From Candidatus Stoquefichus sp. SB1 (GTDB taxonomy: Bacteria > Bacillota_I > Bacilli_A > Erysipelotrichales > Coprobacillaceae): a DNA stretch of 64,000 nucleotides. How positions within the stretch are numbered: position 1 is the stretch's first letter; each line of letters begins with the position of its first letter. The stretch is from assembly GCF_001244545.1 (NCBI RefSeq), contig NZ_LN852695.1, forward strand, positions 713,158 to 777,157, read 5' to 3'. The notes under the pieces were generated by a model. The model did no database searches. It was not told the origin of the DNA and was given only the letters and a program-made list of their open reading frames with translations. A program made the position numbers and the translations under genes. This document shows, piece after piece, positions 8,722 through 53,518 of the stretch.

Positions 8722-10099
8722 GATTTAAAAGCTGATTAAGTAATTTGACAGCAATAGGTATTTGCTGTAAAGAAAGTCCAGAATAATTAATAACAAATGT
8801 ATGTGAATCATAGGGATGTTCATAAAATTGAGAAAGCGTACTAATATGTAAACCTATTTGTGACGCTTTTTTTATTATGTCGTTATCATGATAGTGAGAT
8901 TGATAGTGAAGAAGAAAATGAAGACCGGCATTTTCTTCAGTAATTTCAATTTGTTTGGCAATGGAACTTTGATTTAATTGATATAAAAATTCATCCCGAA
9001 TGAGTTTATAAGAATTACGCATACGATTGATATGTTTTTCAAAATAGCCTTGCTGCATGAAATAAGCAAGAATGATTTGTTCAAAACTGGAGACACTACA
9101 AGCATAAAAATGTAGTTTCTCCTGAAAACATTGAACAAGATGAGGAGGTAAAACCATATAGCTTATACGAAAAGAAGGTGCTAGAGTTTTAGAAAAAGTA
9201 TTCATATAGATGACTCTTTCATTTTGATCGATTTGATATAAAGTGGATATAGGCTTTCCTCTTAAACGAAACTCACTATCATAATCATCTTCAATAATAT
9301 AATGTTGTTGATCATTTGCCCATTTAAGAATATCTAATCGTCTTTTAATTGGCATAGTAATACCTGTGGGATAATGATGTGCAGGGGATATATGAACAAC
9401 TTGGGCTTTGCTTTTGGTGAGTTCTGAAATACTTAAGCCATTTTGGTCTAATGGAATATATTGATAAGTAATATCATTAAGTTGATAAACTTTAGAAATA
9501 CTTCGATGACCAGGATCTTCTAAAGCATAAATCAAATGACGCCCAAGAAGCTGAATGACAAGATTATATAAATATTCTGTACCAGCCCCAATAATGATTT
9601 GTTGGGGCGATACATTCATTCCAGAAAATGCATAGAGATGCTTGCTGATAGCCTCTCGTAAAGATAGACAGCCTTGTTGCGGAGGTCTTGCAAGTAATGA
9701 AGGTTCTTGTGATGACAAGACTTGTCTTGTTAATTTAGACCATGTAGAAAAAGGAAAATGCGTAGGGGATACAGAATTGGTTTTTAAGTCAATTATAAAA
9801 GGATGTTCTTTTTCTTGCGGTAATTGTACCTTTTTTTGGGTAGCAGTTGGTGGATATTGAATTTCACTGACAAAATATCCTTTTTTCTCAATAGCATAAA
9901 TATACCCTTCAATGAGTAATTGGTTATAAGCATTTTCAACAGTAATTAAACTTACATTTTGATTTTTAGCAAACGCTCTTTTAGATGGGAGTTTTTCATG
10001 GGGATTAAGTTTTAGCTCAATAATATCTTTTTTTATACATTGGTAAAGATATTCATACATACTTATATGCATATCACTAGGGAAAGAATAAGTTAACAT
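8705..10099 (-). CDS. pdxR: MocR/PdxR-type GntR regulator with aminotransferase-like domain
   Basis: 464 aa, start ATG at 10097-10099 with RBS AGAGGTGATTTT. Residues 15-80 are a GntR winged helix (KLPSKRAFAKNQNVSLITVE). The rest is a class I aminotransferase fold with IIEDDYDSEFR and the PLP lysine (Lys304) in NTFSKTLAPSF. In this family PLP is a sensed ligand and the protein controls vitamin B6 synthesis or uptake. The divergent neighbour is an ECF transporter S component, which fits a PdxR role. CTGG-containing repeats in the 116-base gap are candidate operators. Family certain; the pdxR rather than another MocR assignment is inferred from context. Confidence 0.75.
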   Translation of the reverse strand: MLTYSFPSDMHISMYEYLYQCIKKDIIELKLNPHEKLPSKRAFAKNQNVSLITVENAYNQLLIEGYIYAIEKKGYFVSEIQYPPTATQKKVQLPQEKEHPFIIDLKTNSVSPTHFPFSTWSKLTRQVLSSQEPSLLARPPQQGCLSLREAISKHLYAFSGMNVSPQQIIIGAGTEYLYNLVIQLLGRHLIYALEDPGHRSISKVYQLNDITYQYIPLDQNGLSISELTKSKAQVVHISPAHHYPTGITMPIKRRLDILKWANDQQHYIIEDDYDSEFRLRGKPISTLYQIDQNERVIYMNTFSKTLAPSFRISYMVLPPHLVQCFQEKLHFYACSVSSFEQIILAYFMQQGYFEKHINRMRNSYKLIRDEFLYQLNQSSIAKQIEITEENAGLHFLLHYQSHYHDNDIIKKASQIGLHISTLSQFYEHPYDSHTFVINYSGLSLQQIPIAVKLLNQLLNHNEMN

Positions 10100-10128
10100 A
10101 AAATCACCTCTGTTTTATTATAACAAAT

Positions 10129-10173
10129 CTGGTCATATAAAAAAATATAAAACTGGATATTTTCATATAACCA
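10129..10173. promoter_or_regulatory. Candidate PdxR operator repeats
   Basis: CTGGTCATAT (10129-10138) and CTGGATAT (10153-10160) are direct repeats with starts 24 bases apart. CATATAACCA (10164-10173) is an inverted half-site of the same type. The first repeat lies just upstream of a minus-strand TATAAT (about 10118-10123) for the regulator gene. Direct plus inverted repeats are typical of MocR-type regulators; binding is inferred. Confidence 0.45.
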
Positions 10174-10215
10174 CAATAGATATATACTTGTCCCAAGGAA
10201 GAGGGGGAATTCATT

Positions 10216-10803
10216 ATGAATAATAAAATATTAAAAATTGTTATGATTGGTTTAATGTCTGCTTTGTGTTATATTGCATTTACTTTTATGCAAATTAAAA
10301 TTCCAACACCAGGTGGAGCAACATCTTTTCATTTAGGTAACACATTTTGTGTTTTGGCGGCTTTATTACTAGGCGGTATTCCAGGAGGGGCAGCTGGGGC
10401 TATTGGTATGGGAATTGGAGATTTATTAGACCCAACTTATGTTATTGTTGCACCAAAGACAATTATTTTAAAAATGGGGATTGGTATTATTACAGGATTA
10501 GTAGCACATAAAGTCTTTCACATTCAAAAATTAGAAGGACAACGTTTATATAAAGCAGTTATTCTTTCAGCACTTGCTGGAATGTTGTTTAATGTTGTTG
10601 GTGAACCTATTTTGTCATATTTCTATACAACATTTATTTTAGGAGCACCTGAGAAAGCAGCAAAAGCATTAGCTTCTTGGAATGCTATAACAACTGCGAC
10701 AAATGCTATTTTAGCAGTTATTATTTCATCAGCTATATATATTGCTATTGCACCTAGATTAAAAAATAATGGCATTTTAAGAAAATTAGCACCAAAGGAA
10801 TAG
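10216..10803 (+). CDS. ECF transporter S component, probably vitamin B6 related
   Basis: 195 aa, RBS AAGAGGGGGAATTC. Six hydrophobic segments, with the conserved PGGATSFHLGNTFCVLAALL region followed by a Gly-rich stretch ending in GDLLDP, as in energy-coupling-factor substrate-binding subunits of the riboflavin/pyridoxine/HmpT class. The S component binds the vitamin and needs the shared EcfAA'T module, which is not in this window. Divergence from a PdxR-like regulator suggests a pyridoxine-type substrate (PdxU-like), but thiamine precursors cannot be excluded. Confidence 0.75.
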   Translation: MNNKILKIVMIGLMSALCYIAFTFMQIKIPTPGGATSFHLGNTFCVLAALLLGGIPGGAAGAIGMGIGDLLDPTYVIVAPKTIILKMGIGIITGLVAHKVFHIQKLEGQRLYKAVILSALAGMLFNVVGEPILSYFYTTFILGAPEKAAKALASWNAITTATNAILAVIISSAIYIAIAPRLKNNGILRKLAPKE

Positions 10804-10840
10804 TGGAAATCTATTCCTTTTTGCGTTATAATAAGTACAT

Positions 10841-10917
10841 GCCGACATAGCTCTAACTGGTAGAGCAGGCCACTCGTAATGGTCAGGTTGCAAGTTCGAT
10901 CCTTGTTGTCGGCACCA
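10841..10917 (+). tRNA. tRNA-Thr (anticodon CGT)
   Basis: A complete 77-base cloverleaf with encoded CCA: acceptor GCCGACA/TGTCGGC, D-arm GCTC/GAGC, anticodon stem GGCCA/TGGTC with loop CTCGTAA (anticodon CGT at 10875-10877), T-arm GCAAG-TTCGATC-CTTGT, discriminator A. A TATAAT-like box lies just upstream (about 10827-10832). A second, damaged copy is at 12241-12317. Confidence 0.93.
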
Positions 10918-11263
10918 TTTTTTAAACGGTGAGTTTCATCGCAAATTATATTTTTATTGTTTCGATGAATTTTAAAGGTTTATATATTAAAGGGTTTAGA
11001 GGATCTTCTAAACTTTTTATTTATAAAATGTCTGCTTAGAGTGTATAAAATTATACATCTTTTTTTGTATATGAAGAAAAAAACGATGTTTTTTTGATAC
11101 GGGTTTTCTAACAAAATTAACCCATATCTAACAGAATATAAAAGATAGAATAAAAATATCTGATATATGCAATCAGCTCAAAGTTATAGAATAACTTTGA
11201 GCTTTAACCATAAACATTGAAAATACACTTGCAATAAATATAAATCAAAAAATCACACTTCCC
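10918..11263. other. Non-coding stretch after tRNA-Thr
   Basis: AT-rich with no credible ORF. Apart from the terminator-like hairpin at 10994-11018 it holds a perfect 12-bp inverted repeat, GCTCAAAGTTAT / ATAACTTTGAGC with a 3-base loop (11176-11202). That repeat has no T-tract in either direction, so it may be an insertion-element relic rather than a terminator. Confidence 0.5.
10994..11018 (+). terminator. Probable terminator after the tRNA
   Basis: GTTTAGA pairs with TCTAAAC around GGATCT and is followed by TTTTT. It is the first U-tailed hairpin after the tRNA-Thr. Confidence 0.55.
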
Positions 11264-11596
11264 TTAATTTGTTGACTTTAATTTCTTATAAACCTTATAT
11301 CCAAAATAAGTAAAGAAGAATACTGATAAGACGCCATCATAAATATAGGCAGTGGTATTAGTAGAATGATTAAACAAAGCTATAATCAATGGAACAACAA
11401 TCACAAGTCCTGTAAAAAGTCCCCAGATATAATAAAACCAAGTATCAATAAAATAGGTGAAAGTAATGGACATAATACAAAGGGCTAAAATTGCAGGTTC
11501 CCGCATAAAGGAAAAATAATACGTTTCAATTGCCATAAACATTTCAATCATCGCAAATATACTAATCATTACGAATGTCATCTTGGGACTTTTCAT
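11264..11596 (-). CDS. Small four-TM membrane protein, unknown function
   Basis: 110 aa with an excellent RBS (TTAAGGAGGCAATATA) before ATG. About four hydrophobic segments: residues 8-30, 34-50, 55-75 and 88-103. There is a Lys-rich C-terminus. No recognised family. It lies between the intact tRNA-Thr and its damaged copy, with a broken transposase upstream, so it may be cargo of a mobile segment (inference). Confidence 0.65.
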   Translation of the reverse strand: MKSPKMTFVMISIFAMIEMFMAIETYYFSFMREPAILALCIMSITFTYFIDTWFYYIWGLFTGLVIVVPLIIALFNHSTNTTAYIYDGVLSVFFFTYFGYKVYKKLKSTN

Positions 11597-11897
11597 TATA
11601 TTGCCTCCTTAATTTATAGTAATACTATTATTTCGTAAAATTTTTAAATAATTTTCTCATTTTATTATTTACTTTATATTATAAGTGTTTTAAATGCTTA
11701 TGTTTTATCATACTCTATCTATTTTTAAATTATCATCAAAAAATTTATGATGTCAATAATAATATTGATTTCAATTAATGTTTGTGAATCAAATATGATA
11801 GTGTCTTAATGGTCAAAGTTGATTTTGTCTTAAATAGTTATCACATTATTAATATTTATGTTACACTTTAACTTCATATCTATTTGAGGAGGTTATT
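11597..11897. other. AT-rich intergenic region
   Basis: No ORF, tRNA or convincing hairpin seen. It holds the RBS of the minus-strand gene and presumably promoters for it and for the former transposase, whose RBS-like GAGGAGGTTATT is at the right end. Confidence 0.5.
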
Positions 11898-12182
11898 ATG
11901 AGAAGGGTTGATCTAAGAATGAACGAATAATATAAATATGACATTATTAAAAATTTAGTTGATAATAACGGTAATAAGAAAAGAGTTGTCATCAAACTTA
12001 AATGCTCAACAAGAACCATTGACAGACTTACTATTAAATACAGGAATGAAGGCGAGAAAGGGTTTATTCATGGCAAACTCGGGATCTAACACCATCCAAT
12101 AGAAATTAGAAAATTTCACAAAAATTCCAGACCAATTATAAAAGACAAAAACAAACCAGAGAAGACAGAACAATTTGAATAA
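11898..12182 (+). pseudogene. Broken transposase N-terminus (helix-turn-helix part)
   Basis: ATG 11898 has a good RBS (GAGGAGGTTATT) but the frame stops at 11928 (TAA) and 12087 (TAA), with a likely frameshift after about 12120. The readable parts, MRRVDLRMNE, then NGNKKRVVIKLKCSTRTIDR, then YRNEGEKGFIHGKLG, are an insertion-sequence-type helix-turn-helix where a wing of basic residues precedes a missing DDE catalytic domain. The family is ISNCY-like from memory. Nothing downstream encodes the catalytic part, so it is non-functional. Confidence 0.65.
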
Positions 12183-12240
12183 TCTTTATTTTATAAGGGT
12201 TTCGGGGATTTGAAAAGGAAAATTTAAGACTAAAAAACTT

Positions 12241-12317
12241 GCCGATATAGCTCTAACTGGTAGAGCAGGCCACTCGTAATGGTCAGGTTGCAAGTTCGAT
12301 CCTTATTGTCAGCACCA
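12241..12317 (+). pseudogene. Decayed duplicate of tRNA-Thr(CGT)
   Basis: It matches the tRNA at 10841 at 74 of 77 bases, including the anticodon and CCA. The three changes are C to T at 12246 (acceptor pair becomes G-U), G to A at 12305 (C-A mismatch in the T-stem) and G to A at 12311 (C-A mismatch in the acceptor stem). There is no TATAAT-like box just upstream. It is probably not a working tRNA. Confidence 0.75.
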
Positions 12318-12514
12318 TACTCACAAATTGAAACTGGAATTGTTTGGATCTCAGTTTTTAAATATTGAAAAATATGCACGTATGTGTTTTTATGTAGTTA
12401 TGATATAATACAATTGATAAGATAGATTAAGAAGTTGTGAATATATAAGATTAATTAATTGATTAAAGAATTGAATGAGAGAATCATAGAAAGTAGAATT
12501 TATAGAGGCAAGAT

Positions 12515-12853
12515 ATGATTAAAACTGAATTTGGAATTATAGAATGTTTTGATAATGGAGAATATGTGATAGATGAATCAATGAAACTTGTTTATATTGA
12601 TGATGATAAGTATATTGATGATTGGTGGAATCAATTGCTAACAATAAAAACATATTTTCATAATTTAAATCAGCCATCGCAGGCACTTGATAGATGGGGA
12701 ATCACATTAATTCCACCAGAGTCTTTACCAGCTTTTCAAGATATTATTTTGTCAGATAAAAGAATAAATGAAGATATACATTTATTAGAACTAGCAAATT
12801 TAATAAATATAGCGATTGATGAAAATAAATTTATAATACATTTTGGAATATAA
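12515..12853 (+). CDS. Hypothetical protein, 112 aa
   Basis: ATG 12515 follows AGAGGCAAGAT. The product is small, acidic, and soluble with aromatic residues (DDWWNQLL, LDRWGITLIPPESLP). Its size and composition resemble immunity-type or SUFU-like accessory proteins, but I cannot name a family. It sits alone in the accessory strip after the tRNA pseudogene, upstream of a DUF3795 gene. A TATAAT-like box lies about 110 bases upstream (near 12401). Confidence 0.65.
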   Translation: MIKTEFGIIECFDNGEYVIDESMKLVYIDDDKYIDDWWNQLLTIKTYFHNLNQPSQALDRWGITLIPPESLPAFQDIILSDKRINEDIHLLELANLINIAIDENKFIIHFGI

Positions 12854-12904
12854 GTTATAAGAAACATTACAAATTTGATTTGAATTTTCAAAGGAGGTGC
12901 TGCC

Positions 12905-13402
12905 ATGTACGATTTACCTTATGGATATTGTGGAATTATGTGTGCTTTATGTAATCGGCATATCGTGAATGGGAGTAGTGCGTGTTCTGGTTGCTCTCAA
13001 AATGGTTATTATTCTGAACCATGTAAAATTGCTAAATGCTGTAAGGAAAAGGAGATACTTCATTGTGCGTTATGCAAAGAATTCCCTTGTGAGAAAGTAA
13101 AAAAAATCGGAGATTTCAGTGATCTGAATACGAATGAACATTATGCTAAGGTTTGTAGTTGTATATTAGAAAATGGATTTGATGTTTGGTATCAAGAATA
13201 TGAAGAACGGAAAATTCTGTTAATGATAGCTTTAGAAAAATATAATAATGGCAGAATGAAGCGATATTTATGTGAATTATTTATGAGAGAAGATTTAGTC
13301 GTTTTACAAGAGATAATGGATGCTGCTAATAATCTAATTGGTACACCTAAAGAACTTTCTATTCAATTTAAATCTTTAGTAGATCAAATTCTTAAATTAT
13401 AA
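12905..13402 (+). CDS. DUF3795-like cysteine-rich protein
   Basis: 165 aa with RBS AAAGGAGGTGCTGCC. The N-terminal half carries the DUF3795-type pattern: YGYCGIMCALC, then SACSGC, a CCKEKEILHCALC segment and EFPCEKV, probably binding metal through many cysteines. The C-terminal half is helical. DUF3795 proteins have no established reaction. The gene stands between two unrelated small genes, so context does not add a function. Confidence 0.8.
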   Translation: MYDLPYGYCGIMCALCNRHIVNGSSACSGCSQNGYYSEPCKIAKCCKEKEILHCALCKEFPCEKVKKIGDFSDLNTNEHYAKVCSCILENGFDVWYQEYEERKILLMIALEKYNNGRMKRYLCELFMREDLVVLQEIMDAANNLIGTPKELSIQFKSLVDQILKL

Positions 13403-13474
13403 TTTATGATGAAAGAAGAAAGATGAAGATTCTTGGAAAGTCTATCAGGATATGTTAGAAGAGAAGGTGTTAAA

Positions 13475-13840
13475 ATGGTAAAGTCGAAAAAGATGATATG
13501 TTTTCTAGTTTGTGTGCTGGTATTTATTGGTTGCCTTGTATTTTTAGATCAACAAACGACTTATCTTGTTGTTGTCCATCAAAATGATGTTGAAGTTCTT
13601 AATGGAAATATTATAATAGAAATGAGTTCAGCGACTTCAGTAGGTTATTTTAGGAAGGTTATATTTGAAGAGATAGATAATGGTATTTATAGTATTGAGG
13701 CCTATTTTTCGTTATTATCTGGGGAATATTCTGGATATAAATACAAAATTGATAATTCAGACAATTATATTAAAGAGATAAGACAATATAGTTTAGATAG
13801 TTCAGGTGACTATACTGTTATCTATCAGAATAATAATTAA
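13475..13840 (+). CDS. Small membrane-anchored or secreted protein
   Basis: I start at ATG 13475 (MVKSKK), preceded by GAGAAGGTGTTAAA, rather than the in-frame TTG at 13433, which has no RBS. The 122-aa product has an N-terminal hydrophobic segment (residues 6-25, FLVCVLVFIGCLVFL), either an uncleaved anchor or a lipoprotein signal with an imperfect lipobox at IGC. The remainder is a beta-rich extracellular domain with no family I recognise. Confidence 0.65.
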   Translation: MVKSKKMICFLVCVLVFIGCLVFLDQQTTYLVVVHQNDVEVLNGNIIIEMSSATSVGYFRKVIFEEIDNGIYSIEAYFSLLSGEYSGYKYKIDNSDNYIKEIRQYSLDSSGDYTVIYQNNN

Positions 13841-14029
13841 AATAGAAGTATATGTATATAACAAATTTCTATTACAAGAGATATTACACCCTTTAGATTA
13901 TAAACTAATGAAGATATTGAAACTATTGAATTCAAATAATCGATATTATATAATGATTATACAAAGTGATGATAAGTTGATTAACATTCAATTCATCTGC
14001 TTAGTCTATAATGAAAACGGGTGATAAAA

Positions 14030-14422
14030 ATGGATAGAATTGAAAAGAGGATTGCAATTCTTTATTCTTTAAGAAAAAAACGTATTAATGAGTTATTAAA
14101 AGATTATCATTTAACACATGATGATTATCAAATTGTAATGGCTTTACATTATGCTGAAGGTATGTCAATTGAAGAAATGATAAATGAAACGAAAATTGAT
14201 GCAAGATTAATTCAACATATCTTAGACCATCTTGTTAAAAGAGATTATATAGAGATAAAAGATGGACAACTTTATTTGACAGATTCAACAAAAAAACTAT
14301 ACCCACAGATAAAAAGAGTTATTAAAAAAAGCAATGATGAACTTATACGTGATATCACTTTAGATGAATATCATGAAATTATTGAGATATTAGATAAATT
14401 AGTTGAAAGTTATGAAATGTAA
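14030..14422 (+). CDS. MarR-like winged-helix regulator
   Basis: ATG 14030 (MDRIEKRIAIL) is preceded by GGGTG; the in-frame GTG at 14021 is a less likely start. The product, about 130 aa, is helical with a winged-helix core: MSIEEMINETKIDARLIQHI as the DNA-contact helices and RDYIEIKDGQLYLTD as the wing. The C-terminal helix would dimerise. Target and ligand are unknown. The 189 bases upstream (13841-14029) hold no gene I trust. A strong terminator follows. Confidence 0.7.
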   Translation: MDRIEKRIAILYSLRKKRINELLKDYHLTHDDYQIVMALHYAEGMSIEEMINETKIDARLIQHILDHLVKRDYIEIKDGQLYLTDSTKKLYPQIKRVIKKSNDELIRDITLDEYHEIIEILDKLVESYEM

Positions 14423-14430
14423 TCAATGGG

Positions 14431-14458
14431 GAAGTGTTAATTAGACACTTCTTTTTTT
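14431..14458 (+). terminator. Intrinsic terminator
   Basis: GAAGTGT pairs with ACACTTC around TAATTAG, followed by TTTTTTT. It ends the MarR-like gene. Confidence 0.8.
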
Positions 14459-14533
14459 GTCTTTTCGTTCATAAAATGAAAGAAACTTCCTTTTTCTTTA
14501 AAAATCCTATATACTAATCAAAGAGGTGAGACT

Positions 14534-15373
14534 ATGAATAAAAAAATTATATTTTTAGATGTTGATGGAACACTCACATTACCAACTGGTGAGGTCTCTT
14601 ATAAAGTTAAAAATGCAATATCACAAGCAAGAAATAATGGACATTATGTTTTTTTATGTACAGGAAGAAATAAGGCAGGTATACGTTCACTATTACCTAT
14701 TGGGTTTGATGGTGCGATTTGTAGTGCTGGAGGTTATATTGAAATTGCTGGTCAAAAAGTTTATGAGTCTTGTTTGAGTCATGAAGATTTAACACTAGCA
14801 AGATCAGTATTTGATAAAAATAATTTAATGTATAATTTAGAAGCAACAGAAATGACATTTCAAGATGATGAAATGAATAAAGAGTTTGTTAAACATCATA
14901 TAGCAAAAGAAAATATGAATTCGGAATTACAGAGATTGGTAAATGAACAAAAGGAACGTTTTAATGTTCATAGTATAGAAGAATATGAAATAAACCCTGT
15001 ACCAATTCAAAAACTTTGTTTTATGTGTCGTGATGAGAAAAACTTAGAAGAACCTCGAGCATTATTATCAGAGCGTTTTAATTTTATTGTTCATGATATT
15101 TTTTCTAAAGATGTTATTAATGGGGAAATTATAGTGAAAGGTACAAACAAAGGAAAAGCTGTTGAATATGTTGTTAATCAATTAGGTCTTTCAATAGAAG
15201 ATACAATTGGATTTGGTGATAGTATGAACGATTATGAGATGATTCAAACTTGTCAACATAGTGTTGTTATGGGGAATGGAACAGCAGAATTGAAGAAACA
15301 TGCAACAACTGTCTGTGAGAATGTTGAAGATGATGGGGTTTATTATGAATTTAAAAGACTAGGATTGATTTAA
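14534..15373 (+). CDS. HAD-superfamily phosphatase, Cof type
   Basis: 279 aa, RBS AGAGGTGAG. HAD motifs are intact: motif I FLDVDGTLT near the N-terminus, motif II CTGRN, and GFGDSMNDYEMI near the C-terminus. The large insert between motifs II and III is the type IIB (Cof) cap. Such enzymes dephosphorylate sugar phosphates or cofactor precursors such as pyridoxal phosphate and FMN; the substrate cannot be read from sequence. A second member of this family is at 34241. Confidence 0.88.
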   Translation: MNKKIIFLDVDGTLTLPTGEVSYKVKNAISQARNNGHYVFLCTGRNKAGIRSLLPIGFDGAICSAGGYIEIAGQKVYESCLSHEDLTLARSVFDKNNLMYNLEATEMTFQDDEMNKEFVKHHIAKENMNSELQRLVNEQKERFNVHSIEEYEINPVPIQKLCFMCRDEKNLEEPRALLSERFNFIVHDIFSKDVINGEIIVKGTNKGKAVEYVVNQLGLSIEDTIGFGDSMNDYEMIQTCQHSVVMGNGTAELKKHATTVCENVEDDGVYYEFKRLGLI

Positions 15374-15505
15374 TAAAATATGATTAAAATCATTTAAAAA
15401 GGTGGATGATGGATATGAGAATCTGTTCTCATTTTCTTTATAAAAACTTTCACATAAAATAAGCAAATACATTTGAAATGTTTCCTTTTTAAAGTGATCC
15501 AAGTA

Positions 15506-15537
15506 AAAGAGAGCCTGACTTAGTCAAGGCTCTCTTT
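15506..15537 (-). terminator. Terminator of the O-antigen ligase-like gene
   Basis: AAAGAGAGCC pairs with GGCTCTCTTT. Read on the minus strand it is followed by TTTTACTT. The stop codon of the upstream coding region (15520-15522) lies in the loop. Confidence 0.8.
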
Positions 15538-53207: not shown

Positions 53208-53260
53208 ATATCCAACAACCCTATAGTAAATACAAAGATAGGAAATAGTAGATAGTGTAA

Positions 53261-53518
53261 GATGCGTAGAGAGATTTCGGTTGGTGAAAGAAATCGTGAT
53301 GACATTATTGAACTCATCCTTGAGTGGAGCACTGAAACAGTAGGAGTAAGCTGCTACGGAACTTGCGACCGTTATCACGCTAGAGTATGAACTTAAAATA
53401 AGCGTACTTGATAAGGTTATTGCTGTGAGGCAATAATAAATATGAGGTGGAACCACGAAGTGAATAACTCTCGTCCTCTATTATGAATTTGTTTTCATAA
53501 TGAGGAGCGAGATTTTTT
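53261..53518 (+). promoter_or_regulatory. T-box riboswitch, leucine specifier
   Basis: Stem I begins GCGTAGAGAG; the distal loop region has GGTTGGTGAAAG. The specifier loop GAACTCATCC carries CTC at 53313-53315, a leucine codon. The conserved T-box AGGTGGAACCACG is at 53445-53457. A strong terminator follows: CTCTCGTCCTC...TTATGAA (from 53468) pairs with TTCATAATGAGGAGCGAG, then TTTTTT. Uncharged tRNA-Leu should favour read-through into leuA. Confidence 0.92.

Follow-up and report, generated by a model that had tools for sequence, protein, structure and literature searches.

Why does this locus carry two nearly identical threonine tRNA genes so close together, and is the second of them still a gene? 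In the window, by which we mean the whole 64-kb stretch of DNA analysed here, ARAGORN found exactly two tRNAs, each a tRNA-Thr(cgt) on the + strand, lying about 1.4 kb apart. A first-pass annotation of the sequence had described a 77-base tRNA repeated 1.4 kb downstream with three changes, two of which make C-A mismatches in stems, and this description was confirmed by ARAGORN, Rfam and direct alignment. The copies differ at three of 77 bases, and all changes from copy 1 to copy 2 are C to T or G to A, as had been stated (position 6, C>T; position 65, G>A; position 71, G>A). Chance is ruled out as the source of a 96% match over 77 bases. The best explanation, which we consider reasonably probable, is a working copy 1 together with a later, promoterless copy 2 that arose by ordinary rearrangement and is decaying as a pseudogene.

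The changes at positions 71 and 65 of copy 2 each leave a C-A mismatch in a stem, C3-A70 in the acceptor stem and C50-A64 in the T stem, respectively, and that at position 6 converts a C-G pair to a U-G pair. The Rfam tRNA score is 58.2 bits for copy 1 and 45.7 bits for copy 2, the cloverleaf energies are -23.7 and -13.9 kcal/mol, respectively, and the full cloverleaf is lost when copy 2 is folded freely. The damage is slight, and both the anticodon and the CCA end of copy 2 are intact. A search of its own genome with the 77-mer returned both copies as close matches along with a single 74% match, which is a tRNA-Thr(tgt); the genome has three tRNA-Thr(tgt) genes alongside copy 1. The features of the locus are collected in Table 1.

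Table 1. Features at and around the two tRNA-Thr(CGU) copies, in window coordinates.
Feature	Position	Strand	Basis
ECF-type transporter S component (PF07155) gene, conserved upstream neighbour of the native tRNA	10216..10803	+	Pfam 5.4e-29
Promoter-like site of copy 1, TGGAAA-17-TATAAT	10804..10832	+	Promoter scan; TATAAT kept in relatives
tRNA-Thr(CGU), native copy 1	10841..10917	+	ARAGORN, Rfam; orthologous position in relatives
Stretch of 3,055 bp specific to this lineage; Candidatus Stoquefichus massiliensis (G001) lacks it between its tRNA and HTH gene	10918..13972	+	blastn comparison of window positions 1-24000 with 20 kb of G001
Terminator-like hairpin with U run, 70 bases 3' of copy 1	10988..11019	+	RNA fold z -3.88
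Intact 110-aa membrane gene, no Pfam or NCBIfam family	11264..11596	-	
Left-end remnant of an IS1202-family insertion sequence	~11783..12076	+	Left terminal repeat and transposase start, one internal stop, right part missing
tRNA-Thr(CGU) copy 2, probable pseudogene	12241..12317	+	ARAGORN, Rfam; two C-A stem mismatches (C3-A70, C50-A64) and lack of a nearby promoter match
112-aa ORF, no Pfam or NCBIfam match	12515..12853	+	
DUF3795 protein gene (PF12675)	12905..13402	+	Pfam 1.3e-06
Winged-helix (MarR-like) regulator gene, next conserved neighbour	14021..14422	+	80% protein identity to G001

Comparison with related genomes identifies copy 1 as the native gene, because the arrangement of ECF gene, promoter and single tRNA recurs in seven of them. 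Relatives of the ECF protein are encoded at 55 loci, seven of which also carry one tRNA-Thr(cgt) each; the tRNA lies directly 3' of the ECF gene at six of these linked loci, and TATAAT is kept upstream of the tRNA at all seven. Since some of the linked contigs stop shortly 3' of the tRNA, the locus count alone leaves room for a second copy, and possible second copies are therefore covered by a genome-wide search (E <= 1e-10), which matched 24 of the 43 family genomes, 23 of them once and the window's genome twice, a few of these matches being tRNA-Thr(ggt). Candidatus Stoquefichus massiliensis, a member of the same genus, has one tRNA-Thr(cgt) copy, and its promoter side resembles that of copy 1 (93.5% over window positions 10794-10917). 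The hairpin 3' of copy 1 is absent from the list of the consensus terminator scan. As a separate observation, the ECF gene of Candidatus Stoquefichus massiliensis is separated from the tRNA promoter by about 5.5 kb (G001:C4, L030, ~10065-15510) with sugar-uptake genes, where a PTS transporter and a beta-glucosidase-like gene were named from a reading of their ORFs.

To place the three changes on one copy or the other, we used eight other distinct 77-base tRNA-Thr(cgt) relatives. Position 6 is C in seven of the eight and A in one, and positions 65 and 71 are G in all eight, indicating that copy 2 holds the derived state at each of the three positions. In the T stem, both copies also have an A52-U62 pair, which is G-C in seven of the eight relatives and A-U in just one, the distant G024. 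As this two-sided change is missing in the nearest relatives, the duplication, or a later gene conversion, followed both the change itself and the split from Candidatus Stoquefichus massiliensis.

Gene conversion could in principle have kept an older duplication alike while its flanks turned over, with copy 2 losing function recently. Consistent with such turnover, the tRNA 3' flanks are already unrecognisable between the window's genome and its sister, that of Candidatus Stoquefichus massiliensis matching neither copy's 3' flank, and the proteins around the tRNA differ by 11-22% between the two genomes. Against it, none of the 23 other matching family genomes yielded a second match in the genome-wide search, and no shared flank can be traced between the copies, so that we regard an old, converted duplication as unlikely.

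Several observations bear on whether copy 2, as we propose, is a pseudogene. Its tRNA score is the lowest of the 52 in its genome, and when mismatches in the acceptor and T stems were counted by fixed offset across all 52 tRNAs, only copy 2 combined C-A mismatches in both stems. The second tRNA with mismatches is the initiator tRNA-Met, with C1-A72, which is normal in initiator tRNA, and two T-T pairs. These T-T pairs (T stem; L163 742-818, G000:C3) may be real or a sequencing error. Among 19 other distinct tRNA-Thr(cgt) sequences with a CCA end, two without CCA having been dropped, three have one T-stem A-C pair, indicating that such a mismatch is tolerated, and none has two mismatches. No promoter-like match was found on the + strand from 11967 to 12240, covering about 270 bases upstream of copy 2, in a promoter scan that overall gave 15 sites against 12.4 in shuffled sequence (sd 3.8), which is no excess. 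The earlier description of a decayed, promoterless copy is upheld, in that copy 2 is derived, damaged and without the conserved promoter of copy 1.

The same changes are compatible with neutral decay, without amounting to proof of it. In random draws of three G/C-to-A/T transitions, at least two mismatches arose in 21%, and a 3-to-0 split of the changes between the copies is expected by chance one time in eight, so that relaxed selection is not proven. A functional, differently expressed copy 2 would be in keeping with its acceptance by ARAGORN and Rfam above cut-off and with its intact anticodon and CCA end, but its rank among the 52 tRNAs, its two stem mismatches and the lack of a promoter match nearby make this the least credible of the readings that we weighed. 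Relatives have this gene only once, and an additional copy bearing derived, structure-breaking changes has the marks of a pseudogene formed by duplication; copy 2 is probably a lineage-specific duplicate that has become one.

The DNA between and beyond the copies is likewise particular to this lineage. In Candidatus Stoquefichus massiliensis the HTH gene starts about 90 bases 3' of the tRNA; the Pfam HTH matches of its counterpart in the window are weak and below cut-off. The small membrane gene that had been noted between the copies proved to be an intact ORF, whose product has a 53% identical paralogue in its own genome (G000:C6) and matches in 8 of the 43 family genomes. The 112-aa ORF 3' of copy 2 has no match in the other 42 of the 43 family genomes, and the sequence immediately 5' of copy 2 (12077-12240) gave only chance-level matches to its own genome, a palindromic motif apart. 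In our reading, the copies sit in a patch of gene turnover. The comparison with sister genomes, proposed earlier as a check for an empty site, was answered in part: in Candidatus Stoquefichus massiliensis a single copy is present and the 3.06 kb is missing, but this genome belongs to a different species, with a 3' flank that matches neither copy, and hence does not offer a clean empty site.

Genomic islands occur at tRNA genes, and integration at the tRNA gene had been suggested for this locus. On that account the whole tRNA would have served as a site-specific attachment site, the copies would be attL and attR, and the integrase and most other genes would since have been lost. Such an event might leave what is seen here: the tRNA gene is repeated directly, its two arms are separated by foreign-looking DNA that includes an IS remnant, and the sister species lacks the stretch. 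In Longibaculum muris, moreover, the C-terminus of a tyrosine recombinase (PF00589, 1.4e-15; L031 19316-19790) sits at a contig end, facing the orthologous tRNA-Thr. This element end, however, recurs at two places with no tRNA near either (G019:C10 and G006:C9), and therefore looks like that of an element without a preference for tRNA genes. Between the copies in the window, the three + strand frames gave no Pfam match at E <= 0.5, to an integrase or otherwise; the genome as a whole has 16 matches to PF00589, the nearest of them 42 kb away. The 3' flank of copy 2 is also unlike those of the three relatives tested, and attachment sites usually cover the 3' part of a tRNA. Searches of viral contigs (by exact pattern), plasmids and phages found no related locus, the phage search yielding tRNA-like pieces alone, in three phage records. 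The IS between the copies, for its part, belongs to a group that makes long target duplications of its own. Taken together, these results count against the suggestion, and we consider site-specific integration improbable.

Compared with genomic islands at tRNA genes, and with tycheposons as outlined in PMC10872708, the locus is similar in that a directly repeated tRNA brackets variable DNA, but it differs in that no recombinase match was found in the + strand frames between the copies, the repeat is a whole tRNA and the stretch measures only 1.3 kb. A search of the literature on duplicated or whole tRNAs at islands and on tRNA pseudogenes returned nothing usable.

One candidate mark of a tRNA-integrating element was considered and dropped. 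The palindromic motif CTTTATTTTATAAGGGTTT lies in the region 12183-12201, 38 bases 5' of copy 2, and is also present near the tRNA-Thr of Longibaculum, beside the integrase end. Of the 43 family genomes, 7 contain it, at 11 places in total (none for a reversed-pattern control), and viral contigs have it in 119 stretches, 80 of which are among the matches listed. Of 93 places examined, nine, the one in the window among them, are within 300 bases of a tRNA, and five are within 600 bases of an integrase end. The motif reads as a common terminator hairpin and is no longer counted as evidence; a literature search with its letters found nothing.

The broken transposase noted between the copies was identified as the left-end fragment of an IS1202-family element, with an internal stop. 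The assignment was made on a full-length relative in the same genome (G000:C4), to which the remnant is 75% identical over 11789-12076; the second ORF of this relative scores 290.9 bits against the NCBIfam ISNCY model NF033594 (cut-off 250), and its first ORF, at 92.2 bits, falls below that cut-off. The full-length relatives are about 1.55 kb long with TGT..ACA-type ends, and the flanks shared by eight of them measure 27-29 bp in six and 19 and 7 bp in the other two, lengths that may take in one base of the IS ends. In the available text of PMC10132070, the long-TSD branch of the IS1202 family is described as having target duplications of 16-28 bp and no known targets. The full-length relatives of the remnant resemble that branch in end type, length and long shared flanks, whereas the remnant itself lacks a right end, which makes its own target duplication unreadable.

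Could this element have carried the tRNA? An aberrant transposition that brought the tRNA beside the right end of the IS is suggested by the remnant ending 164 bases 5' of copy 2, and by one of the eight full-length copies in the family, which lies 88 bases from a tRNA-His. Yet neither a right terminal repeat nor a target duplication was found to the right of the remnant, and the other seven full-length copies have no tRNA in the flanks examined, so that we hold such a capture to be very unlikely. Independently of the tRNA question, another family genome (G040, L127) has an identical 92-base stretch with an IS1202-type left end at 725-816 and again at 1328-1419, 603 bases apart.

The extent of the repeat is the one odd feature of the locus. 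Identity between the copies extends one base past either end of the 77-mer, with unrelated flanks beyond, and the borders of the repeat coincide with the mature tRNA ends to within one or two bases. No pairing of copy 1 flanks with copy 2 flanks stands out among the comparisons tested, the best (copy 1 3' flank with copy 2 5' side) being equalled by 14 of 300 shuffles. Unequal duplication, which had been offered as the other origin, is not borne out in that form: a longer duplicated segment is not visible, and neither flank is common to the copies. A random breakpoint does not account for the fit to the mature ends, which could reflect old turnover of the flanks or a small duplication, with RNA-templated copying as the least likely source. 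The product of such copying would be a bacterial tRNA retrocopy, formed by reverse transcription of a mature, CCA-ended tRNA and insertion into the chromosome; the position of the repeat ends near the mature 5' and 3' ends and the lack of a common flank are the points that speak for it, and we give it only a very small probability.

Bacterial tRNA pseudogenes can arise from gene duplication, and copy 2 resembles those so formed in that it duplicates a single-copy tRNA, has stem-breaking changes and lacks a promoter; it differs from them in the fit of the repeat to the mature tRNA ends and in having no flank in common with copy 1. On our preferred account of a working gene and a decaying duplicate, copy 1 would be the functional tRNA-Thr(CGU) gene, and a promoterless copy would have been placed 1.4 kb downstream, in the patch of gene turnover, after the split from Candidatus Stoquefichus massiliensis. 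The copying would have occurred by illegitimate recombination, or by a small tandem duplication followed by insertions, rather than through a dedicated element. Copy 2 would then be silent. It would not be needed, its codon being covered by copy 1 and tRNA-Thr(UGU), and its decay as a pseudogene would have begun.

Read in this way, the locus is another case of a tRNA duplicate in decay, here in an AT-rich gut bacterium, and matters little in itself, its use being that of a dated example of the decay of a spare tRNA. If the match to the mature ends proved general, it would prompt the question of how tRNA copies come about in bacteria. Elsewhere in the window, a T-box leader (RF00230, 108.6 bits) lies on the + strand at 53226-53481.
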